From: Desulfobacterales bacterium | Lineage (GTDB): Bacteria > Desulfobacterota > Desulfobulbia > Desulfobulbales > VMSU01 | NCBI GenBank assembly: GCA_011330685.1 | Contig: DRPV01000310.1 | Coordinates: 1 to 37,357, forward strand | Direction of reading: 5' to 3' | DNA: 37,357 nt | Shown: positions 2,913 to 27,691 of the stretch, piece after piece | Layout of the letters: every line of letters starts with the position of its first letter | Position numbering within the stretch: the stretch's first letter is position 1 | The notes under the pieces: model-generated | Told to the model about the DNA's origin: nothing | The model's input: only the letters and a program-made list of their open reading frames with translations | The model's database searches: none | Made by a program: the position numbers and the translations under genes

Positions 2913-5282
2913 CTAAGCGCTGCCCGATGTCAGATCTTCAACCAGGGTCATAAAATCTTCTATTACCAGGGGCTTTGCCATAAAATGTACCCTTGGTCGA
3001 GCAAGTATTTCCGGGGAAAGATGATTATCGGCGCCGCCGTTGCCGCTGATAAAAATAACCGGCAGGTGGTGCTGATTTTTGTATATAACCTCATAAATTT
3101 CCCGGCCGTTTCTAAGGGGCTGGAGCAGGTCTAAAATCGCCAGATTAATCTCATCTTTGTGATCAATAAAGAGGCTGATGGCCTTTTTTCCATTAGCGGC
3201 GCCGAGAACATTAAAGCCCGCCTGCTGCAGTTGAATCGTCAATGAATTACGAACCATCTCTTCGTCGTCAGACAGCAGAATTGTACCGCGGGAGGCGGGG
3301 CTGGCCGGGATATTTTCTTTAATGCCGGTACCGGCATTGACCGGAGAACATGTTTTGTCGTCAGTTTGAGCGGTATCAACCGGCGGCGAGGCGGGCGCAG
3401 GGGTTTTCCGGGGAGGAGTAAGAGGCGCTGAATTGTGTTTTACCGGGAAATAAGCCGTGAAGGTTGTTCCTTCTCCACCAACGCTTTGGACATTAAAAAA
3501 GGCCCCGTGCTTTTTGATAATATCGTGGATAATGGCCAGGCCCAGGCCGGTACCCTTGGAAGAATTCTTGGTGGTGAAAAAGGGCTCACATATTCTGCTC
3601 AGGTCGGCTGGATTGATTCCCTCGCCGTTGTCGGCAAGACTGAGTTTCATGTAACAGCCCGCTGGAATTTTATCAATATTACCATTGATGGGGGACTCGA
3701 CCTCCACCGCCTGGCTGGCAATCTTGATGGTTCCGCCGTTCGGCATGGCATCTCTGGCGTTGGTGCAAAGATTAATCAGCACCTGTTCCAGTTGATGCTT
3801 GTCCGCCGCTATGGGTAAATCATCGGCGGCAGGTTTAATCTGGAGGTCGATCTCCTCGTTTACCAGACTGCGGAGGATGTCGGCTATGCCGGAGATAATG
3901 TTATTCAGGGAGGCAGCGCATAGGGCAACCTCCTGCCTTTTGCCGAAAGACAGGAGGTTGGCGGTGAGGTTTTTACCAAGTTTGGTGGCGATATTTATGT
4001 ATTTGATATAGTCGCTGACGGTTTTATTGCCGTGGCTCTCTTGGGCCAGCAGGTGGCTGAAAGTGCTGATGGAGGCCAAAACATTGTTGAAATCATGGGC
4101 GATGCCACCGGCGAATCGCCCTAAATATTCCAGGCGCTTAGTGTGGTTCAGACGTTCCTCTAATTTTTTGTGTTCGGTAATGTCAATACTGCTTCCCCGG
4201 CGTCCCAGGAACTGGCCGTTAATATATATGGGGCTGCAGGTGTGGGTGAACCAGCGTACCTGGCCGTCTCTGGTTATTATGCGAAAATCAGTGCCGTTAT
4301 GTTCAGGATCATCTATTTTATGCAGGTGGCGGCGATACATCTCCTTGTCGTCGGGATGAATTATATCTAATAATAATTTAGGGTTATTCATGAATTCCAG
4401 GCGGGAATATCCGGTGAGCCGTTCACAGGATGGAGATATAAAGGCCAGCTGGTTATTGTTCTTTATCCAATATTCAAAATTATAGGCGAATTCAGATACG
4501 ATACGGAATTTTTTTTCGCTCTCGGTAATTGTTGCCTGATAGCGCTGGAAGGCGGCGCTGAATTTGATAATAGCCAGGCCGCCGAGGAGCCAGAGCAGGA
4601 GATGAGTCAGGAGAATAGTATGCCGCGCCATGACCGCTGTCGCGTAATAGGGCTGCATGGGGATGGCCACGCTCATGCCGCCGTGTACCGCGCCGACTTT
4701 GAACTCTGGGCTCTCGTGGCAGTTAAGGCAGCCTTGGTCAATTACATATGGTTTTAAGAGCTTCAGATAAGGGGCGCTGTTGATTTTGGTAATGGTACTC
4801 GCCTCTGTAATTATTCCTTTGCGGAATTCTTTAAGAATCTTTGTTTCCCAGGCATCCGGTTTGTCGTAAGGGTCAATGGTCTCCTGATAATTGAGGCTTA
4901 CCGTGTGGCTGAAGGCGGCCAGGTTTGAGGACTGCTTGTGTAAAACCTCATAGGCCTGCTGGGTCACCTGAAAGGGGTCGATAATTGTGAAACCCACGGT
5001 GTTTGGCCGGGAGCCCTTGATTTTAAAGAAGAAATGCGGGTTGTTCTTGTCTTTGTTGGGGATTTTGGTATATATACCACCATGCATGGTGCTCCATTTG
5101 CGATAGGCAATATTATGCTCGAAAATGGTTCTCGCCTCTATTTTGGCCTTGGCTATGGTGTCAACGTGGTTCTGGTAGAGATTCCAGGCTCCAGAGGCGG
5201 CGATGAGGATAGTCCAGCCGATCAGCAGGCTGGAACGATAGTTCGCAGCCAGAAATACCCGAATTGATCTGCCGATATTCAT
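2913..5282 (-). CDS. hybrid sensor histidine kinase with periplasmic haem c (DUF3365-like) sensor domain
   Basis: The protein has 789 residues. A first membrane segment (about 17-36) is followed by a periplasmic region resembling the Tll0287/DUF3365 sensor family, with a CLNCH haem motif at 185-189. A second membrane segment lies at about 222-240 and a PAS domain at about 258-370. The HisKA H-box (AHDFNN, phospho-His 396) is followed by an HATPase with N-box NLCTNARDA near 504-512 and GTGLGLA near 577. A Pro-rich linker (618-660) leads to a receiver domain with DD at 672-673, acceptor Asp 718 and a KP near its end. It probably senses redox state, NO or another haem ligand and phosphorelays through its own receiver; there is no DNA-binding output. 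Its position just upstream of two multihaem cytochromes suggests, but does not prove, that it controls them. No clear ribosome binding site precedes the ATG. Confidence 0.9.
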   Translation of the reverse strand: MNIGRSIRVFLAANYRSSLLIGWTILIAASGAWNLYQNHVDTIAKAKIEARTIFEHNIAYRKWSTMHGGIYTKIPNKDKNNPHFFFKIKGSRPNTVGFTIIDPFQVTQQAYEVLHKQSSNLAAFSHTVSLNYQETIDPYDKPDAWETKILKEFRKGIITEASTITKINSAPYLKLLKPYVIDQGCLNCHESPEFKVGAVHGGMSVAIPMQPYYATAVMARHTILLTHLLLWLLGGLAIIKFSAAFQRYQATITESEKKFRIVSEFAYNFEYWIKNNNQLAFISPSCERLTGYSRLEFMNNPKLLLDIIHPDDKEMYRRHLHKIDDPEHNGTDFRIITRDGQVRWFTHTCSPIYINGQFLGRRGSSIDITEHKKLEERLNHTKRLEYLGRFAGGIAHDFNNVLASISTFSHLLAQESHGNKTVSDYIKYINIATKLGKNLTANLLSFGKRQEVALCAASLNNIISGIADILRSLVNEEIDLQIKPAADDLPIAADKHQLEQVLINLCTNARDAMPNGGTIKIASQAVEVESPINGNIDKIPAGCYMKLSLADNGEGINPADLSRICEPFFTTKNSSKGTGLGLAIIHDIIKKHGAFFNVQSVGGEGTTFTAYFPVKHNSAPLTPPRKTPAPASPPVDTAQTDDKTCSPVNAGTGIKENIPASPASRGTILLSDDEEMVRNSLTIQLQQAGFNVLGAANGKKAISLFIDHKDEINLAILDLLQPLRNGREIYEVIYKNQHHLPVIFISGNGGADNHLSPEILARPRVHFMAKPLVIEDFMTLVEDLTSGSA

Positions 5283-10067: not shown

Positions 10068-11063
10068 TCATTTCTCGCGCAAGACGCTGTCCAAGTGCTT
10101 TTGGAGGGGCTTGTTCTCATGTAATATCTGTTCCCCGCGATACATCGATCGGCTTACAGCTGATGGCCCTATGGAAAGAAATTCCCCAACCTCAACACCC
10201 TTCATGCCGAGCCATCGAATCGCAGCGTAGCAAAAAACTGCTCTTACTTCGGATACAGGGCCACCCCTCGATCGGTGATAAATCGATTCAGGCGGCACTT
10301 CAAACAGCTCGCATATGATTTCACGGGTTTTCTGCAATGATACTCTTGGCGGCATGATCGTCCGGATATCCGTTTCCATTCGAAGCCGCTCGACAAATTC
10401 CCCGCTCCCCAGAATTCGATCGTCAAAGACTGCGCACTCGTCTTGGCCGTCTTCGGTCTTTCTGCTCCGGCGTAAACCTCCACCCACCAATTCGGGGCGG
10501 CGGCCTTGGGATATGCCGTCGGAGAGGAATTGCCGGTATTTTTTGCGGCTTTCCTTTCGCCGTTTATCGAAAAGAAGCAATACCTCGTCAATAGCCTGGC
10601 CGAGTAGATCCGTTTTGCCCATTAATACGGCATGGCCGCTCCAGGGATAAGTATCGAGTGTGGTTATCTCAGGTACTATTTGGGCTCGTAAGGGGTTCAG
10701 ATGGATGTAACGGATGAGTTCAAGCAAATAGACATCTTCCTCGCAGATAATTGACTTGTAGCGGTTTTGGAAAAGATGGCCGTTTCGTTTGTGACGCTGG
10801 TTGAAATTTACTGCATATCCAGTCAGTAGGCGCCGCATGAAGGTGGAAATTGCTGACCGGTTGCAACGTAAAAGCAAATGGAAGTGATTGTCCAGCAAGG
10901 CCCAGGCAAAACAATCGGTGTCGGTGTCTTTAAGCAGAGAAGAAAATCGTTTTAAGAACATCCCGCGGTCTTTATCGTCGCGGTATATTTTCCGCCTCTC
11001 GATTCCGCGCACAATTACATGTTGCAACAATCCCGGTATGTCGATTCTGGCTTTTCGTGGCAT
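10068..11063 (-). CDS. REP-associated tyrosine transposase with DnaA-like C-terminal domain
   Basis: The product is 331 residues from MPRKARIDIPG; an ATG 12 bp upstream is possible and neither start has a clear ribosome binding site. In numbering from that upstream ATG, the Y1 transposase domain spans about 5-160 with the HUH motif H64-F-H66 (DNHFHLLLR) and likely nucleophile Tyr in RYIHLNPLR (Tyr123). Residues about 243-335 (SLQKTREIICELFEV to SRSMYRGEQIL) resemble the helix-turn-helix domain IV of DnaA, found in a subgroup of these transposases. The enzyme would nick and join single-stranded REP-type DNA. It is flanked on both sides by repeats with inverse-complementary cores, its likely substrates. 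A truncated copy lies at 9097-9219. Confidence 0.92.
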   Translation of the reverse strand: MPRKARIDIPGLLQHVIVRGIERRKIYRDDKDRGMFLKRFSSLLKDTDTDCFAWALLDNHFHLLLRCNRSAISTFMRRLLTGYAVNFNQRHKRNGHLFQNRYKSIICEEDVYLLELIRYIHLNPLRAQIVPEITTLDTYPWSGHAVLMGKTDLLGQAIDEVLLLFDKRRKESRKKYRQFLSDGISQGRRPELVGGGLRRSRKTEDGQDECAVFDDRILGSGEFVERLRMETDIRTIMPPRVSLQKTREIICELFEVPPESIYHRSRGGPVSEVRAVFCYAAIRWLGMKGVEVGEFLSIGPSAVSRSMYRGEQILHENKPLQKHLDSVLREK

Positions 11064-11108
11064 GAAAGTCAGCATAGCCGTTTAATCGCCTTAAGTCAAT
11101 AAAACAAC

Positions 11109-11925: not shown

Positions 11926-12807
11926 ATGGCCCATTGTCCCGTTTTGTTGGCGGAAACCATGGATTTGTTGAGTCCTGTCCCCGGCGGTATATATGTGGAC
12001 GGCAATCTTGGCATGGGTGGCCACAGCCGTGAAATATTAAGAAGGTCAGCCCCTGACGGCCGTCTGATTGGTTTTGATCTCGACGCCGATGCCATTGCCA
12101 TGGCCCGTCGTAACCTGACTGAATTCGGCGGCAGGGTCGAATATATCCAGGATAATTTTGCCAATTCACCCAAGCGGCTGGCGGACTTGGGAATAGATGC
12201 AATAGACGGGTTATTGTTAGACCTGGGATTGTCGTCATATCAATTAGACAGCAGTGCCAGGGGGTTCAGCTTTCAGGGTAAAGAGCCTCTCGATATGAGA
12301 ATGGACAAGGGGCAAGACCTGACTGCCGCTCAGATATTAAACAGTGCCAGCAGTGAAGAACTGGCCGATATCTTTTATTTTTATGGGGAGGAGAGGCAGG
12401 CCCGTCGTATTGCCTCCTTTGTGGTTCAGGAGCGTCGGAAGCAGAAAATTATTACCACTGATCAATTGGTGGCGCTGGTCGCCCGGGCCGTACCGCGTAA
12501 ATTTCAGCCCCGGAAGATTCATGTGGCCACCAAGGTGTTTCAGGCCCTGCGCATAGCGGTGAATAAGGAAATGGACAATTTACTGCGTATTCTAAAGCTG
12601 GGGCCGCAAATGTTAAAAAATGAGGCGAAATTCTGTGTTATTTCATTTCACTCCCTGGAAGACCGCCTGATTAAACGGGCCTTTCAGAGTAACCCGTCCT
12701 TGTCGGTAGTGACCAGGAAACCGGTTATAGCCGGAGAAGATGAACTGCGGCTTAATCCACGGGCCAGGAGTGCCAAATTGCGAATGGCGAAGAAGGAGGT
12801 ATTATGA
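11926..12807 (+). CDS. rsmH: 16S rRNA (cytosine1402-N4)-methyltransferase RsmH
   Basis: The product is 293 residues. The SAM-binding motif is YVDGNLGMGGHSREIL (about 23-38), followed by GFDLDADAIAMA. The DGLLLDLGLSSYQLD and RGFSFQGKEPLDMRMD blocks are diagnostic for MraW/RsmH. C-terminal CVISFHSLEDRLIKRAF is the family's conserved SFHSLEDR motif. It methylates N4 of C1402 in the ribosomal P site. The start is ATG at 11926 after GGGGA. The last 4 bp overlap ftsL (ATGA). Confidence 0.96.
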   Translation: MAHCPVLLAETMDLLSPVPGGIYVDGNLGMGGHSREILRRSAPDGRLIGFDLDADAIAMARRNLTEFGGRVEYIQDNFANSPKRLADLGIDAIDGLLLDLGLSSYQLDSSARGFSFQGKEPLDMRMDKGQDLTAAQILNSASSEELADIFYFYGEERQARRIASFVVQERRKQKIITTDQLVALVARAVPRKFQPRKIHVATKVFQALRIAVNKEMDNLLRILKLGPQMLKNEAKFCVISFHSLEDRLIKRAFQSNPSLSVVTRKPVIAGEDELRLNPRARSAKLRMAKKEVL

Positions 12808-13139
12808 TTCAGGATTTTTCCAATACATTTAACGGCCGTCAGAGCGTTATGGTGAGGCCCGTGGCCATCAGCGGCAACCAGACCTTGAAAAAGGCGGTGG
12901 GGGTTATATTACTCTGCGCCGCCATCAGTGCTCTAATCAGCAGTGTGGCCTTCGCTTTTCTGCTGCGTAGCGGTTTAAACAACTTGAATATGGAACAGAG
13001 CCTCAAGGTTAATATGTTAAAGACCGAGCAGCAGCTCTATAGCCGGCGTCAAAGGCTTGTTTCCAGGCATTATGTCAGTAAAACGGCTGGGCGTCTCGGG
13101 CTTCATCCCCCGCTGAAAAGCCAGATAAAACATCTTTAG
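12804..13139 (+). CDS. ftsL: FtsL-like divisome protein
   Basis: The product is 111 residues: a cytoplasmic N-terminus (1-30), one membrane segment (about 32-55) and a short periplasmic helical region with heptad-like pattern (NLNMEQSLKVNMLKTEQQLYSR) ending in GRLGLHPP. Size, topology and position between rsmH and ftsI identify FtsL, although sequence conservation in this family is low. The start has AAGGAGG upstream and overlaps the rsmH stop. FtsL forms a complex with FtsB and FtsQ and activates the FtsWI synthase, which makes the state of ftsI and ftsW here notable. Confidence 0.85.
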   Translation: MIQDFSNTFNGRQSVMVRPVAISGNQTLKKAVGVILLCAAISALISSVAFAFLLRSGLNNLNMEQSLKVNMLKTEQQLYSRRQRLVSRHYVSKTAGRLGLHPPLKSQIKHL

Positions 13140-13169: not shown

Positions 13170-15146
13170 ATGAGATATCAGCGCCAGACAGTGAGGAGAG
13201 GCCGTGGCTGGTTATGGCTGTTTATAATCCTGTTGGCTGTTGCTGGATATTTCCTGTGGTATGTGACATCATACCACAGGGCTCCATCGGGAGTGAAAAA
13301 GGCGGTAAGATCGCGGCCCGCCAAGGTTGATAAATTTATAGCGGCCGAGAGCCCCCTGCGGCGTGATATTTATGACCGCAATATGAGGCCGCTGGCCTTA
13401 AGTGTTCGGAGTTACTCGGTAAACTTAAGGCCAATGGAGTTGAAGCCCGGCCCGGCAGGGATAAAGCAGCTACGGAAGATCCCCGGTCTGCATAACAGGC
13501 AAATTGCTGGGCTGCGAAACGGGCAGGCCTCTGTCCAGCTTAAAAAGTATATATCGGCGGCTGAGGCCGATAGAATAGCCAGGCTGAAGATAAGCGGTAT
13601 CCATCTGCGGGCCGCTGAACATCGCTTCTACCCTTATGGTGATGCCGCCGCGCAGGTTATCGGCTTTACCAAGGACGGCCAGGGGCTGGCGGGTGTAGAG
13701 TTTACCTACGACAGTGTCTTGACTGGTGATTTATTGCCTGCCTCCAGGGTTCTAAAGGCGGCGGGGATTAATATCTCTAATCCTGCCGGTGGGGCAGCGG
13801 TTGTTTTGTCTCTTGATGTCAAGCTGCAGATGTTGCTGGAAAAGACCTTAAAGGGCTTGATTAAAAAAAGAGGGGCCGGTTCCGCTATGGCCCTGTTGCT
13901 GAATGCCGCTGACGGCAGAATTGAGGCCCTGGCGAATATTCCATCCTATGACCCTAATCGTTATTGGCAATATGACAGTTTTAACCGCCGTAATAGAGCC
14001 TTAAAAGATCCGGTACTCCTCGGCGGTATGTTCAGGTATCTGCAAATCGCGGCTGCCCTCCGTTCTGGACTGCTTAAACCGCCCAGCCTCAACGGGTCAA
14101 AAAAGGTAATCGCGCACCTTGTTCCGCGCTTTATGAAACTGCCGGTGCGGGGAGTAACCGGACTTAACAAGGGGGTATGGCAGAAGATTCAGGATGGCGT
14201 TTATTATGGCCCCGGTCTCGGCGCGATGCAGGAGATAACGGCGGCCCTTCCGCCCCGTTTGGCTGTCAATGCCCTGGACGGGTTGGTGGATAAGGCATTT
14301 ATTACTACTGACATAACCCCCTTAACCCCTGTTTCTCTTGTTGATCTAACGGCTGTCTTCGGGCGCTTGATTAACGGCGGCAAGGGGTTAAGGCCTCATT
14401 TGTTGGATGGTTTACGTTTAGACGGCAGTAAAAAAATCCTGGCGGCTGATTTTAAGACCGCTGCCGCTGTTGACCCTAAGTATCCAGGTCGGGAGTTTCT
14501 GAATATTTTGCGTAAAGGGCGGAATGGGGCTAAGGGGCCGATAGTTTTGGAGTCTCTGCTCACGGCGGCGGATAAAGAGGCGGCCAGTATTGAATTTAAA
14601 GAGGCGGGGACGGCAGGTAAACAGGGGATTGAACCGCCGCCGGAGAAAAAGGTTATTTATAACAGCCTGTCAATGGGTATTCAAACCGGCCGTACCCCGT
14701 TGGTGCTGCTTATCGCCCTTGAGGGTTTAACTAAGCCGGGCAGCGGCTCATTATGCGGCGCTGCCATAGGGCGTATTCTACGCGGCCGCCGCCGGATATA
14801 CCGCCGAAAATTAGCGGTAAGGCCGGTGAGGCGGGATTATTTCGCGGTTTGGCAGCGCTGGCGGATAAAACATGAACGGGCCGCTAAGAGGGAACGCGCC
14901 AAGAGTACTACCGGTGTTATGCCCGATGTCCGGGGCTACAGTCTGCGCCGGGCCTTACGGCGTTTGAGCGGTCTTAAGGTCAGGCTGGTAATAAGCGGGG
15001 CCGGGCAGGTGAAATGGCAGCAGCCCGCACCCGGCGTTAGATTGCGTGATAACGAGCTCTGCCGCCTGCGATTACGCTTTTTAGAGGTTAAGCAAAGGGT
15101 CAATGAACACTTCGGGAGCGGCACAGGAAAGGCGGTTAATCGCTGA
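13170..15146 (+). CDS. ftsI: FtsI-like class B penicillin-binding protein homologue lacking all catalytic motifs, with PASTA domain
   Basis: The product is 658 residues: a membrane anchor (about 13-31), a PBP dimerisation region (about 57-185, with SPLRRDIYDRNMRPLA), a transpeptidase-like domain (about 205-540) and a C-terminal PASTA domain (about 582-636). In the fold the catalytic SxxK block aligns as DPVLLGGMFRYLQIAAALR: expected E-P-G-S-T-F-K is L-L-G-G286-M-F-R289. SxN aligns with GPG at 347-349 (YYGPGLGAM), and KTGT aligns with EAGT at 478-481. Flanking family residues are kept (NRALKDP, TPLTPVSL.DLTAVFGRLINGG), so alignment and frame are sound and no frameshift is needed. It is placed exactly where ftsI belongs. 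It is most likely a catalytically dead scaffold that still binds FtsL/FtsQ. Whether it binds beta-lactams is unknown, but acylation at Ser is not possible at this site. Confidence 0.9.
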   Translation: MRYQRQTVRRGRGWLWLFIILLAVAGYFLWYVTSYHRAPSGVKKAVRSRPAKVDKFIAAESPLRRDIYDRNMRPLALSVRSYSVNLRPMELKPGPAGIKQLRKIPGLHNRQIAGLRNGQASVQLKKYISAAEADRIARLKISGIHLRAAEHRFYPYGDAAAQVIGFTKDGQGLAGVEFTYDSVLTGDLLPASRVLKAAGINISNPAGGAAVVLSLDVKLQMLLEKTLKGLIKKRGAGSAMALLLNAADGRIEALANIPSYDPNRYWQYDSFNRRNRALKDPVLLGGMFRYLQIAAALRSGLLKPPSLNGSKKVIAHLVPRFMKLPVRGVTGLNKGVWQKIQDGVYYGPGLGAMQEITAALPPRLAVNALDGLVDKAFITTDITPLTPVSLVDLTAVFGRLINGGKGLRPHLLDGLRLDGSKKILAADFKTAAAVDPKYPGREFLNILRKGRNGAKGPIVLESLLTAADKEAASIEFKEAGTAGKQGIEPPPEKKVIYNSLSMGIQTGRTPLVLLIALEGLTKPGSGSLCGAAIGRILRGRRRIYRRKLAVRPVRRDYFAVWQRWRIKHERAAKRERAKSTTGVMPDVRGYSLRRALRRLSGLKVRLVISGAGQVKWQQPAPGVRLRDNELCRLRLRFLEVKQRVNEHFGSGTGKAVNR

Positions 15147-19364: not shown

Positions 19365-20726
19365 ATGCTGATCCGCCCCCAAACCAGGGTCTTGATTGTC
19401 GGCCTCGGTAAATCCGGACGCTCAGCCCTGCGCTTTTGTCAGGGGTTGGGGGCCGTGGTCTCGGTGAGCGATGCCGGGGCTGCCGGGGTGGAGAATGCCC
19501 ATTGGCTGGCCGGGCGGGGGGTTAAATATGAACTGGGCGGCCATAGCCGGGATTTTTTTGAGGCTGCGGAGGTGATAATCGTCAGTCCCGGAGTGCCGGA
19601 TATTCCTCTGCTCCAGGAGGCCGGGCGCCGGGGCGCCCTGGTAATCGGCGAGCTGGCTCTGGCCCCGGATTACCTGCGTACCCCGGTGATGGCCATAACC
19701 GGCACCAATGGCAAGACCACCGTCACCACCCTGCTTGGTGATCTGCTGCGGGCGGCGGGCCGGAAGGTATTTGTCGGCGGTAATATCGGCACCCCCCTAA
19801 CCGATTATTTATCCGGCCCCCAGGAGGCGGATTGGGTGGTATTGGAGGTGAGCAGCTTTCAGCTGGATATGGCGGGTGGATTCAGGCCGCGGCTGGGGAT
19901 TATTCTTAATATCTCACCCGATCATCTGGATCGTTACAAGAATATGGAGGATTACGCCTTGAGTAAGATGAGTCTCCTGCGTAATCAGCTTGCGGCTGAC
20001 AGCGCCATCTTAAATGCTGATGATCCAATGATTTGCCGGCTCCTGGGAGAAAATCCGCCCCTGTCCCAAAGATATTATTTTGGCACTTCCCCAGGACTGG
20101 AGGCCGTGATTGATGGTGGCCGTATCTGCCTCACGAAGGGGCCGGCGGCGGAAGATTTCCAGCTGCCCGCTACCCTGACCCCGGCACCCAATCCGGCCAA
20201 CGCCGCGGCGGCGATTTTAAGCGCTGGAACGGCTGGTTGCGGCAGGGCGGATATTGCGGCAGGCTTAAAGGCCTTTCGGCCCCTGGCCCATCGCCTGACT
20301 CCGGTGGCGGAGATTAACGGGGTTCAGTATATAGATGATTCCAAGGCCACCAATGTCGGGGCAGCCGCCGCCGCCCTGGGGAGCATGGAGCGGCCGGTTA
20401 TTCTCATCGCCGGAGGCCTGAGCAAGGACGGCGGCTATGAACTGATGCGGCCGCTGATCAGTGAAAAGGTAAAGGCTATGCTCTTGATTGGTGAGGCCCG
20501 TTTTGAGATGGCGGCCGCCTGCCGCGGCTTATGTCCTCTGGAACTCCATGATTCCTTGGAGGGGGCGGTAGAGCGGGCGGCTGAATTAAGCGAGTCCGGC
20601 GATATCGTCCTGTTGTCACCGGCCTGCGCCAGTTTTGATATGTTCAGGAGCTACGGGGAGCGGGGTGAGGTGTTTCAGAAGCTGGTGGGCAGGCTGGTGG
20701 GCAGGCTGGCGGGTAAGGCCGGATGA
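19365..20726 (+). CDS. murD: UDP-MurNAc-L-Ala:D-Glu ligase MurD
   Basis: The product is 453 residues. The N-terminal Rossmann part is VLIVGLGKSGRSALRF, the ATP loop ITGTNGKTTVTTLLGDLL (about 110-127), then EVSSFQLD and ISPDHLDRY. C-terminal YIDDSKATNVGAA and LIAGGLSKDGGYE are typical MurD motifs. It adds D-Glu to UDP-MurNAc-L-Ala. The last 4 bp overlap murG (ATGA). In most dcw clusters ftsW lies between these two genes; here there is no room for it. Confidence 0.96.
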   Translation: MLIRPQTRVLIVGLGKSGRSALRFCQGLGAVVSVSDAGAAGVENAHWLAGRGVKYELGGHSRDFFEAAEVIIVSPGVPDIPLLQEAGRRGALVIGELALAPDYLRTPVMAITGTNGKTTVTTLLGDLLRAAGRKVFVGGNIGTPLTDYLSGPQEADWVVLEVSSFQLDMAGGFRPRLGIILNISPDHLDRYKNMEDYALSKMSLLRNQLAADSAILNADDPMICRLLGENPPLSQRYYFGTSPGLEAVIDGGRICLTKGPAAEDFQLPATLTPAPNPANAAAAILSAGTAGCGRADIAAGLKAFRPLAHRLTPVAEINGVQYIDDSKATNVGAAAAALGSMERPVILIAGGLSKDGGYELMRPLISEKVKAMLLIGEARFEMAAACRGLCPLELHDSLEGAVERAAELSESGDIVLLSPACASFDMFRSYGERGEVFQKLVGRLVGRLAGKAG

Positions 20727-21817
20727 GCGGCCGGCAGCTCCGGATAATTATTACCGGCGGCGGCACCGGTGGTCATCTTTTTCCGGGAATTGCCGTGGCT
20801 CAGGAGATAAAACGCCGCGAGCCGGAGGCCCGTATTCTCTTTGCCGGTACTGGCCGGGCGGTGGATAAAGAAGGCCTGGCCCGCTATGGCTTTGAGGCCC
20901 GGACTATGCATTGCGGAGCCTTGAAGGGGGCCGGACTCATGGGGATGTTGAGAACCATGTTAGGCCTGCCCGCGAGTCTGGTGGAGGCCCTGCGTCTGTT
21001 ACGGGAGTTTAAACCTGCCCTGGTTTTCGGGGTAGGGGGCTATGTCACCGGGCCGGTGATAGTGGCGGCCCGGCTTTTGGGAATTCCTGCCGCTATTCAT
21101 GAGCAGAATTCAGTACCCGGTCTGGCCAACCGGCAGCTCGGCCGGCTGGCGCGGCGGGTATTTTTGTCGATTCCCGGCAGTGAGCGTTATTTCCGGCCCC
21201 GGAAATGTTATTTCAGCGGCAACCCGGTGCGGCAGGAGATTATCAAGGCCGCCGCCGGGCCGTCCAGCGGGGAGCCGGTTCTCCTGATCCTTGGGGGCAG
21301 CCAGGGGGCGCATCGTTTAAATACCCTGCTGCCGGAGGCCGTGGGCGGGATTTTAACGGAACTTCCGGCCGGTTTTCGGGTGATTCATCAGACCGGCAAA
21401 GAGGATGAGTTGGTGAGCCGTGAGGCCTGGAATAAGCTCAAGGTAGAGGCGGAGGTCAGGGCGTTTTTTAGGGATATGGCCCGGATTTACAGCCCGGCCT
21501 CCCTGGTGGTCTCCAGGGCCGGGGCCACTACCCTGGCCGAATTAACCGTCCTGGGCAAGGCCGCTGTTCTCATCCCCTTTCCCTTCGCGGCGGATAATCA
21601 TCAGGAAAAAAATGGTGATTATCTTGTGGCGGCCGGGGCGGCGAGGATGTTTAAGGAGCAGGATTTAAGCCCCGCGGATTTGGGCCGGGCCATAGCGGAA
21701 ATATTTAAGAATGATGAGTCGCGCCGTCACATGGAAAAACAGGCCGGAAAACTGGCCCGTCCGGAAGCGGCGGCGGCAATAGTTGATGAATGCGAGAAAT
21801 TAATTGTGAGCCGGTAA
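20723..21817 (+). CDS. murG: undecaprenyl-PP-MurNAc-pentapeptide GlcNAc transferase MurG
   Basis: The product is 364 residues. The N-terminal G-loop is ITGGGTGGHLFPGIAVAQEI (about 9-28). GVGGYVTGPVIVAARLLGIPAAIHEQNSVPG follows, with a second G-loop LILGGSQGAHRLN (about 191-203). The UDP-GlcNAc-binding region is VVSRAGATTLAELTVLGKAAVLIPFPFAADNHQ. It makes lipid II from lipid I at the inner membrane. It overlaps murD by 4 bp, and its TAA is directly followed by the murC ATG. Confidence 0.97.
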   Translation: MSGRQLRIIITGGGTGGHLFPGIAVAQEIKRREPEARILFAGTGRAVDKEGLARYGFEARTMHCGALKGAGLMGMLRTMLGLPASLVEALRLLREFKPALVFGVGGYVTGPVIVAARLLGIPAAIHEQNSVPGLANRQLGRLARRVFLSIPGSERYFRPRKCYFSGNPVRQEIIKAAAGPSSGEPVLLILGGSQGAHRLNTLLPEAVGGILTELPAGFRVIHQTGKEDELVSREAWNKLKVEAEVRAFFRDMARIYSPASLVVSRAGATTLAELTVLGKAAVLIPFPFAADNHQEKNGDYLVAAGAARMFKEQDLSPADLGRAIAEIFKNDESRRHMEKQAGKLARPEAAAAIVDECEKLIVSR

Positions 21818-24150: not shown

Positions 24151-24951
24151 ATGAAACGGACAGCAGGGGACTGGTTAGTCCATATTTTAGCTCGACGCTC
24201 CTCTGAAAACCGCCGCCGGTTTATCCTGTGCTTTATTCTGCTGGCGGCCATCGGCGGTGGGGCGGCGGGACTTGGGATGCTGGTCTATCATTCGCTCAGC
24301 CGCTCTGATTTTTTTCAGATAACCGAGATCAGGATCAACGGTATACACCGGCTGCGGCGTGACAGGATTTTGACCTTGGGCCGGGTGAGAGTCGGCGACA
24401 ATCTTTTATCTCTGAATACTGACAAGATTAAGACCCGGCTGGCCGCGGAGCCGTGGATTGCCAAGGCGGAGGTGGATAGAGAGTGGCCCAACCGCCTTAT
24501 AATAACTATTAAGGAGAGAAAGCCGCTGTGCCTCTTAAATCAGGGCGGCAAGCTGAGTTATGTTGATCGACATGGCCGGGTGTTTGCCGCGGTTGAAGCG
24601 GGGGATGAACTCGATTATCCCGTGATCAGCGGGCTGCAGACGGCGGCAAAGGCTGGGCCGGGCGGCCCTTTAAGTCTGGCTTTAAAATTTATTCATTATG
24701 CCGGACTTGGCAGTGACTTTTTACCGAGGCAGAATATCTCCGAGCTCCATTTTCGCAAAAAAGGGGGGGAGATTCTTTTTTTAGCAGACCGGCCGTTTCC
24801 CATATATCTTGGCAAGGTGATTGATAGAAGTTCCTATTCCCGCCTCGCCAAGGTTTTAGAATGGCTTTATAAACATCGTAAATTCAAAGAGGTATCATAT
24901 ATTAAAATGGGTTATGGTGAAGAAAAGATACTGGTGGTAAAAAATAGATAA
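24151..24951 (+). CDS. ftsQ: cell division protein FtsQ
   Basis: The product is 266 residues: a cytoplasmic N-terminus rich in Arg, one membrane segment (about 24-48), then a POTRA domain (about 55-125: FFQITEIRINGIHRLRRDRIL, NLLSLNTDKIKTRL, PWIAKAEVDREWPNRLIITIKER). The FtsQ/DivIB beta domain follows, with YVDRHGRVFA and LDYPVISGL. It links FtsA/FtsZ-side assembly to FtsL/FtsB and the septal synthase in the periplasm. It begins 15 bp after murB. No ddl gene lies between murB and ftsQ, unlike in many clusters. Confidence 0.94.
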   Translation: MKRTAGDWLVHILARRSSENRRRFILCFILLAAIGGGAAGLGMLVYHSLSRSDFFQITEIRINGIHRLRRDRILTLGRVRVGDNLLSLNTDKIKTRLAAEPWIAKAEVDREWPNRLIITIKERKPLCLLNQGGKLSYVDRHGRVFAAVEAGDELDYPVISGLQTAAKAGPGGPLSLALKFIHYAGLGSDFLPRQNISELHFRKKGGEILFLADRPFPIYLGKVIDRSSYSRLAKVLEWLYKHRKFKEVSYIKMGYGEEKILVVKNR

Positions 24952-25143: not shown

Positions 25144-26391
25144 ATGGCGCGGCACGACACAGCGGAATTAATCGTAGGACTTGATATCGGTACCACCAAG
25201 ATTTGTGTGGTCGTGGGTGAGGTCAATGACGGCAAAGCCGAGATAATTGGTATGGGGGTGCATCCCTCCATTGGCTTGCGTAAAGGGGTTGTGGTCAATA
25301 TAGACAGTACCGTCAAGTCAATAAAAAGGGCCGTTGAAGAGGCGGAGATGATGGCCAATTGCGATATTTCCACCGTATATGTGGGGATAGCCGGCAGTCA
25401 TATTAAGGGTTTTAACAGCCATGGCCTGATTCCCATCAAGAATGAGGAGGTTACCAGGGACGACATCGGCCGGGTGGTGGAGGCTGCCAGGGCGGTGCCC
25501 ATCCCCCAGGATCAGAAAATTATTCATGTCCTGCCCCAGGAATTTACCGTTGATGATCAATCAGGTATCCAGGATCCCCAGGGCATGACCGGGGTGCGTC
25601 TTGAGGCCGATGTCCATATCGTTACCGGGGCCTCCACTGCCATTCATAATATTGTCAAGTGCTGTAATGTGGCAGGATTGGAGGTGGCCAATGTGGTGTT
25701 GGAACAATTGGCCTCGGCGGCGGCCATTCTGACCCCGGAGGAGTTGGAACTGGGGGTCGCTCTCCTCGATATCGGCGGCGGAACCTCAGACCTGGCAATT
25801 TTCTTTGAGGGTACCATTAAACATACCTATGTTCTGGGTCTGGGGGGGAATAATCTGACCAACGATCTCTCAATCGGCCTTCGTACCCCAATGAAGGAGG
25901 CGGAGCGTTTAAAGGAGCTCTACGGCAGTGCTATTTCGGGGATGATAGACAAGGATCAGGCCATTGAGGTACCCAGCGTTGGCGGAAGAAACCCCCGCCG
26001 GCTCTCTCAGCGGGTCATGGGTGAGATTCTTGAGCCCCGTATTGAAGAAATGCTGACTATGGTCAATCAGGAGATGAATGAACGGGCCGAAAACAATATG
26101 CTCTATAAAGAATATGTCAATGCCGGGGTAGTTATCACCGGTGGTACGGCCTTATTAGCTAATATTCAGGATCTGGCGGAACAGATATTTGATCAGCCGG
26201 TACGGCTTGGCAATCCCACTGATCTTGGCGGGGTGACGGATATTGTTAATACCCCGCAATGCGCCACCGGGGTTGGGCTTGTTTTATACGGTCTGCGTAA
26301 TCGTAATCAGACTCTGGCAACTCACCGTAATCGGCAGGCCATGGGCAAAATAAGCAGCCGTTTAAAGGGTTTTCTTGGTAAGATGTTTTAG
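25144..26391 (+). CDS. ftsA: cell division protein FtsA
   Basis: The product is 415 residues of the actin/Hsp70 fold: phosphate-1 LIVGLDIGTTKICVVVGE (about 9-26), SHIKGFNSHGLIPIK of the SHS2/1C domain (about 81-95), phosphate-2 ALLDIGGGTSDLAIF (about 205-219) and adenosine motif VVITGGTALLANI. The C-terminal KGFLGKMF is a short amphipathic membrane-targeting helix, preceded by a basic linker. It anchors FtsZ filaments to the membrane and recruits later divisome proteins. GGTGA precedes the ATG. The 97-bp gap to ftsZ holds a small palindromic repeat. Confidence 0.97.
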   Translation: MARHDTAELIVGLDIGTTKICVVVGEVNDGKAEIIGMGVHPSIGLRKGVVVNIDSTVKSIKRAVEEAEMMANCDISTVYVGIAGSHIKGFNSHGLIPIKNEEVTRDDIGRVVEAARAVPIPQDQKIIHVLPQEFTVDDQSGIQDPQGMTGVRLEADVHIVTGASTAIHNIVKCCNVAGLEVANVVLEQLASAAAILTPEELELGVALLDIGGGTSDLAIFFEGTIKHTYVLGLGGNNLTNDLSIGLRTPMKEAERLKELYGSAISGMIDKDQAIEVPSVGGRNPRRLSQRVMGEILEPRIEEMLTMVNQEMNERAENNMLYKEYVNAGVVITGGTALLANIQDLAEQIFDQPVRLGNPTDLGGVTDIVNTPQCATGVGLVLYGLRNRNQTLATHRNRQAMGKISSRLKGFLGKMF

Positions 26392-26488: not shown

Positions 26489-27691
26489 ATGACATTTGTA
26501 TTAGCTGAATCAGAAAGCCGGGCCAATATCAAGGTTATCGGCATCGGCGGCGGCGGCAATAATGCTGTGAATACCATGGTGGAAAGTAAATTGGCCGGGG
26601 TGGACTTTATTGCCGCTAATACTGATTTACAGGCGCTTAATAATTCACAGGCTGATATTCATATTCAGCTGGGGCCGCAGAAGACCAAGGGGCTGGGGGC
26701 TGGGGCCAATCCCGAGATCGGTCGTGAATCAGCGGAAGAAAGTGTGCAGGAAATCAGGGAGGCCCTGACCGGCGCCGATATGGTCTTTATCACTGCCGGC
26801 ATGGGCGGCGGTACCGGTACCGGAGCCGCCCCGGTGGTGGCGAGGATCAGTAAGGAGACGGGGGCGCTCACCGTGGGCGTAGTCACCAAACCCTTTATGT
26901 TTGAGGGCCGGGCCCGGATGCGCAACGCCGAGGCAGGCTGGGCGAAGCTTAAAGAGCATGTCGATACGATTATTACCATCCCCAATGACCGTTTAATCGC
27001 GCTGTCCGACAAAAAAGCCACCTTTATGAGCGGGATGAAGATGGCTGATGACGTCCTGGTGCAGGCGGTACAGGGGATAACGGATATGGTTAATATGCGT
27101 GGTTATATTAACCCGGATTTTGCCGATCTGCGCACGGTTATGAACGAGATGGGCCCCGCCCTCATGGGTGCCGGGCAGGGTATCGGCGAGAATCGGGCTG
27201 CCGAGGCGGTTAATATGGCCATTGCCAGCCCCTTGCTGCAGGATGTCAGTATCGAGGGTGCCAAAGGGGTGCTGCTGAATATCTCCGCCCGCGAGGATTC
27301 TCTGACCATGGCCGAGGTTACTGAGGTCTCCAGCAAGATTTATGATGAGGTACACGACGACGCCAAGATAATTATGGGGGTCATTTTTGATGACTCGCTG
27401 GGTGAGGCCATGCGGGTGACCGTCATCGCCACTGGGATTCAGTCGGCGGAGATAGAGGAACTGCCGATAAACGTCCAGGCCATCAACAGTCGGCCGGCTG
27501 CTCCCCCTGTGGAACCGGAGCCGCCGCTTCCCCAGAAAACAACCCCGGAGCCGGCACCCTCTAATGGTATTGATTATTCCGATTCTCAGAATCGGCTGCG
27601 CAATAACGTGGTGCGCAAGGCCTTTAAACGTAAGATATTTGATGAAGACGAACTTGACAGGCCAACCTTTATCCGCCGTAATGAGAGCTGA
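26489..27691 (+). CDS. ftsZ: cell division GTPase FtsZ
   Basis: The product is 400 residues. Nucleotide-binding motifs are [13 protein letters not shown] (about 16-28), AANTDLQAL (42-50) and the tubulin signature GGGTGTG (106-112). The T7 synergy loop is N208-P-D210-F-A-D213, keeping the Asp residues needed for GTP hydrolysis. A Pro-rich variable linker (about 320-370) precedes the C-terminal conserved peptide ([11 protein letters not shown]), which binds FtsA. It forms the Z ring. GGGGAGAG precedes the ATG. The stop overlaps the next gene's start by one base. Nothing suggests loss of function, so division itself is FtsZ-based. Confidence 0.98.

Follow-up and report, generated by a model that had tools for sequence, protein, structure and literature searches.

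An FtsI homologue lacking its transpeptidase motifs is conserved in Desulfobulbales, together with the absence of FtsW

Introduction

The FtsW–FtsI pair is regarded as the near-universal synthase of the septal wall and as a main target of beta-lactams. The docking of class B penicillin-binding protein (PBP) pedestals on SEDS proteins is established for both FtsWI and RodA–PBP2. Being bifunctional, class A PBPs could take the place of FtsW as well as FtsI.

Departures from the canonical scheme have been described. In Bacillus subtilis, cells with the S309A variant of PBP2B still divide, and another enzyme supplies transpeptidation (PMC5656894). In Clostridioides difficile, division is driven by a class A PBP, RodA–PBP2 acts in elongation only, and the SEDS/class B PBP pair of the dcw cluster is repurposed for sporulation (PMC10693644). 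In four Desulfobulbaceae, namely two cable bacteria and two Desulfobulbus species, zipA, ftsW and ftsN were found to be absent; FtsI is treated as normal in the parts of that survey considered here, with no remark on a loss of its active site (PMC7873302). Here, the FtsI homologue of a Desulfobulbales genome is described, which shares the dcw position, transmembrane (TM) helix, PBP_dimer/pedestal domain, transpeptidase fold and, as in related FtsIs, PASTA domain with FtsI/PBP3, but differs in that it has no SxxK, SxN or KTG motif and is encoded in a genome without FtsW. It is referred to as pseudo-FtsI.

Results

The dcw Cluster and Domain Organization of Pseudo-FtsI

The window, i.e., the whole analyzed stretch of 37,357 nucleotides (assembly GCA_011330685.1, contig DRPV01000310.1), contains a dcw cluster with the gene order mraZ, rsmH, ftsL, ftsI, murE, murF, mraY, murD, murG, murC, murB, ftsQ, ftsA and ftsZ. 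The features relevant to cell division are as follows:

12804..13139, + strand: FtsL-like protein (dcw position, one hydrophobic segment, conserved in the order, no Pfam FtsL match)
13170..15146, + strand: pseudo-FtsI (TM helix, pedestal/PBP-dimer domain, transpeptidase fold without SxxK, SxN and KTG, PASTA domain)
14916..15053, + strand: PASTA domain, residues 583–628, the best conserved part of pseudo-FtsI across the order
20720..20730, + strand: murD–murG junction, where the two ORFs overlap by 4 bases; site of ftsW in outgroups, ftsW absent
24151..24951, + strand: FtsQ (Pfam POTRA_1 and FtsQ_DivIB_C)
25144..26391, + strand: FtsA
26489..27691, + strand: FtsZ

An IS200-like (Y1) transposase gene is located just upstream of mraZ (10068–11075, − strand), and two multihaem cytochrome c7/c3-type genes (481–2808, − strand) adjoin a hybrid histidine kinase gene (2913–5282) in the same window.

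The ORF of pseudo-FtsI, located between ftsL and murE, is translated into 658 aa with no internal stop. Pfam analysis revealed a PBP_dimer domain at residues 61–169 (45 bits) and a PASTA domain at residues 583–628 (27 bits), and Transpeptidase matched only as a fragment, residues 240–304 (26 bits), which corresponds to approximately the first fifth of the domain. The AlphaFold2 model (mean pLDDT, 77) has its best Foldseek matches to the crystal structures of SpoVD and PBP3/FtsI (E-value, ~1e-25; TM-score, ~0.6 by target length), and the fold is therefore that of a class B PBP. Thus, the original prediction, made from the window alone, that a full-length class B PBP occupies the ftsI slot was correct.

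Loss of the Active-Site Motifs

The residues that replace the catalytic motifs, or have been proposed to do so, are encoded at the following positions:

14025..14036, + strand: GMFR in place of SxxK, codons 286–289 (alignment with 18 intact FtsIs)
14208..14216, + strand: GPG in place of SxN, codons 347–349 (profile alignment)
14550..14558, + strand: ESL, likely equivalent of KTG, codons 461–463 (inferred from predicted strand order)
14601..14609, + strand: EAG, equivalent of KTG in the original prediction, codons 478–480 (disordered stretch)

The proposed replacement of SxxK by GMFR was borne out when pseudo-FtsI was aligned with 18 intact FtsIs from its phylum: EPGSTFK lines up with LGGMFR of pseudo-FtsI (RRNRALKDPVLLGGMFRYLQIAAAL vs. 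RDRAVADSFEPGSTFKVFLVAAAL). Profile–profile alignment (100%; E-value, 6e-93; 634 columns) agrees on the placement of both SxxK and SxN, and the latter, read as GPG, was also confirmed by direct reading of the residues. In the AlphaFold2 model, residue 286 starts a helix (285–298), as it does in active PBPs, with a local pLDDT of ~88. The loss of KTG was confirmed as well, but the assignment of EAG as its equivalent is doubtful. MAFFT places KTG on EAG, whereas residues 475–492 are disordered in the AlphaFold2 model (pLDDT < 50). E461-S462-L463 lies on a predicted strand (458–465) ahead of the two strands which come after KTG in PBPs, and its Glu is invariant in an alignment of nine sequences (A2). 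ESL is thus the likelier structural equivalent on the basis of the model, the exact equivalent being uncertain; KTG is lost whichever of the two is right.

Relocation of the motifs was also considered. A search across the whole protein found S..K only at residues 40 and 600, both outside the transpeptidase domain, and no KTG or KSG anywhere, which rules out that the catalytic motifs have moved elsewhere in pseudo-FtsI.

Distribution over the Order

In total, 58 genomes of the order Desulfobulbales, mostly MAGs, representing 15 families and 34 genera, were sampled, and 56 of them encode a relative of pseudo-FtsI. Among the 59 rows extracted for these relatives, both SxxK positions are occupied in 54; none of the 54 combines the Ser and the Lys, and a single Ser or Lys is found in four rows. 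SxN is intact in 5 of the 59 rows, with Ser at the SxN position in 32, and KTG is absent throughout the printed alignment. A further 32 loci (L121–L152) from Desulfurivibrio, Desulfocapsa, and Desulfobulbaceae and Desulfurivibrionaceae MAGs are also devoid of the SxxK and KTG patterns. Most Acidobacteriota and Clostridia FtsIs retrieved by the same collection search retain both patterns, and all of the inspected outgroup FtsIs have SxxK and KTG. Pseudo-FtsI is hence a trait of the whole order and not an oddity of a single genome, so that decay in one genome is excluded.

Conservation peaks in the pedestal (RxNIYDRN and GFVKDxQGLAGxE), in the PASTA domain and in the early part of the transpeptidase fold, and the center of the transpeptidase domain is poorly conserved and varies in length among the relatives in the order. 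Omega values were calculated by the NG86 method for ten pairs of pseudo-FtsI genes, some of them with high dS, and ranged from 0.08 to 0.34. For the pair G000/G002 (dS, 0.42), omega was 0.21, compared with 0.05 for PBP2, 0.03 for RodA and 0.08 for rsmH. Pseudo-FtsI is therefore less constrained than the active wall enzymes and far from neutral, i.e., under purifying selection, in agreement with the earlier proposal of a non-catalytic protein maintained by selection rather than decaying. The loss of catalytic residues from a protein whose fold is kept and whose gene remains under purifying selection is what defines a pseudoenzyme.

Absence of FtsW

No SEDS gene was found in any of the 21 dcw loci of the order, as opposed to 21 out of 21 dcw loci of phylum outgroups, and all 21 of these ftsW-containing clusters also have an FtsI with PGSxxK and KTGT. 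Searches of the 58 genomes with profile PF01098 typically returned one SEDS protein per genome, encoded next to PBP2; this sole SEDS protein is considered to be RodA because of its position beside PBP2. The exceptions are G019 and G049, in which the copies are split by contig ends or frame, G003, which has an extra fragment of 33 aa, and G045, which has none. The rodA gene of G019, a single-contig genome, consists of two overlapping frames (L199:4090–5285), owing to either a frameshift or a sequencing error. With PF03717, two class B PBPs were found in 53 genomes and a single one in four (G003, G006, G034 and G045); G036 has none. The strong PF03717 match (PBP2) separates cleanly from the weak one (pseudo-FtsI). 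Profile searches with PF01098 and PF03717 detected neither a second, intact FtsI nor any FtsW elsewhere in the genome that carries the window, and its only SEDS protein is RodA.

Most families of the phylum sample outside the order have two SEDS proteins. In two genomes with an intact FtsI, either no SEDS protein (G095) or only RodA (G058) was found. The FtsI contigs of both stop before the position of ftsW, and the assemblies are in 380 and 450 pieces, respectively; these genomes were therefore set aside as counterexamples to the link between FtsI and FtsW.

Other FtsW-Less Lineages of the Phylum

Family f28 (G070 and G106) also has no ftsW, and in its degenerate FtsI, Glu and Gly stand where SxxK has Ser and Lys. 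The first tree separated f28 from the order; a single clade is not rejected by the AU test (p = 0.56), and the mixture-model tree leaves the choice undecided. Two independent origins are accordingly not claimed, and either one or two loss events across the order and f28 are possible.

In families f35, f39 and f40, the only SEDS protein is encoded next to PBP2, and the ftsI slot contains shortened proteins: ~410 aa in G082, ~320 aa in G081 and G116, and ~250 aa in G077 and G113. Apart from a TM segment and a short linker, the last of these retain only the PASTA domain (profile match of 97.9% to the PASTA part). This graded series in families without FtsW suggests that the loss of FtsW makes the transpeptidase domain dispensable, in contrast to some other part of FtsI.

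The ftsW slot of f35 is occupied by a hydrophobic ORF of 267–270 aa, probably a polytopic membrane protein (L240:3110–3910 and L241:3088–3897, both on the − strand), which is conserved between genera in two FtsW-less genomes. It has no Pfam match and no detectable homology to FtsW, and profile comparison gives no support to its being an FtsW remnant.

Candidate Septal Enzymes

Apart from PBP2 (STYK, KTGT) with RodA, the genome that carries the window encodes three GT51 class A PBPs with SxxK and KTG intact. At least two GT51 proteins per genome are found in all genomes of the order but one, which is 80% complete. Nearly all genomes of the order encode a class A PBP of ~1,100 aa, which also occurs in four sampled outgroups that have FtsW, and it was not found in the other FtsW-less lineages sampled. 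With this distribution, the loss of FtsW is not uniquely associated with any enzyme, and the ~1,100-aa protein is not claimed to be a dedicated replacement, given its presence in the four FtsW-bearing outgroups. This class A PBP (L197:1092–4418, − strand; G000:C157) has a long insert between its GT51 and transpeptidase parts, which by eye is S1/OB-like.

In G045 (99% complete; dcw cluster at L226), no SEDS protein, PBP2 or true MreB was found, the only MreB match being FtsA-like; pseudo-FtsI and three GT51 proteins are present. Since the SEDS, PBP2 and MreB genes form one stretch in the sister genome G019, their absence could be an assembly gap. G045 is thus either a SEDS-free cell or a genome with a missing operon, and the former would favor class A PBPs.

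Discussion

The loss of the active site, its spread over the order, the absence of FtsW and the purifying selection on pseudo-FtsI are observed. Of these, the order-wide distribution and the co-loss of FtsW, as well as the further-reduced forms in other lineages, go beyond the original prediction. A literature search, with most subscription journals outside its scope, found no report of an inactive FtsI in Desulfobulbales. The absence of FtsW from Desulfobulbaceae is already in print (PMC7873302); the same absence was observed here.

As pseudo-FtsI has no active site and FtsW is absent, another enzyme should, by elimination, cross-link the septum. The septum would be made by class A PBPs and/or RodA–PBP2, with class A PBPs as the first candidate and RodA–PBP2 as the second. 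It is probable, in our opinion, that the conserved pseudo-FtsI is a non-catalytic subunit of the divisome, that ftsW was lost, and that other enzymes, most likely class A PBPs, produce the septum. The ftsW gene was probably lost from the dcw cluster in an ancestor of the order, possibly one shared with a related lineage, and the transpeptidase site of FtsI, which elsewhere works with FtsW, degenerated. Pseudo-FtsI is nevertheless retained in the operon, encoded after ftsL and before murE, and its membrane anchor, its pedestal, the transpeptidase fold and the PASTA domain are all preserved. Pseudo-FtsI may contact FtsQ/FtsL(/FtsB) through its TM segment and pedestal, its PASTA domain may bind new peptidoglycan, and the protein may recruit or activate the septum-making enzymes, presumably class A PBPs, with RodA–PBP2 as an alternative or helper.

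The fact that the motifs are gone, together with an omega above that of PBP2 and RodA, could be taken to indicate a decaying gene or a sequencing artefact. Full-length open frames in dozens of genomes of 15 families and omega values well below 1 make this explanation extremely improbable, and both a pseudogene and local decay were rejected on these grounds. It is also rather improbable that the transpeptidase domain has taken on a new function in binding or catalysis, e.g., binding of stem peptides or lipid II, or the sensing of septal peptidoglycan via PASTA. The fold is kept, Ser persists at the SxN position in over half of the rows, the Glu of ESL does not vary in A2, and PASTA is the most conserved part, all of which would fit such a role. 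On the other hand, the poorly conserved center of the domain, its variable length, and its shortening or deletion in other FtsW-less families favor a dispensable domain.

A more serious competitor, though still an unlikely one, is that RodA–PBP2 serves both elongation and division and is recruited to the septum by pseudo-FtsI, with no special role of class A PBPs. In nearly all genomes of the order, as in the other FtsW-less families, no SEDS/class B pair other than RodA–PBP2 is left, and a class B pedestal is naturally suited to docking on a SEDS protein. Against this, G045 has pseudo-FtsI without SEDS, PBP2 and true MreB, which a missing operon contig could explain, and RodA–PBP2 of C. difficile is confined to elongation while a class A PBP divides the cell (PMC10693644).

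Both described systems have points in common with Desulfobulbales. In B. subtilis S309A, a catalytically dead divisome PBP is likewise compatible with division, but it is a laboratory point mutant in a cell with FtsW, whereas pseudo-FtsI is natural, order-wide and found without FtsW (PMC5656894). In C. difficile, as inferred for Desulfobulbales, the septum is not made by FtsW–FtsI, a class A PBP being the candidate for this role; the genome that carries the window has no canonical FtsW/FtsI pair, as expected of a divisome of this type. The dcw SEDS/class B pair is repurposed in C. difficile, whereas in the Gram-negative Desulfobulbales the SEDS gene is missing and the class B PBP is kept as a pseudoenzyme (PMC10693644).

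As a broader and more tentative proposal, which we would not put at quite even chances, the FtsW–FtsI pair may have been dismantled in Desulfobulbales, and several other lineages of the phylum may have followed the same course, FtsW by deletion and FtsI by stepwise reduction from a dead enzyme to a membrane-anchored PASTA protein, leaving a divisome without a SEDS polymerase of its own, in which pseudo-FtsI would recruit class A PBPs. An order that has no FtsW and retains FtsI for its non-catalytic part offers natural material on the roles of FtsI beyond catalysis, and Desulfobulbales pose the question of whether division is possible without a SEDS polymerase dedicated to the divisome, and of which enzyme takes its place.
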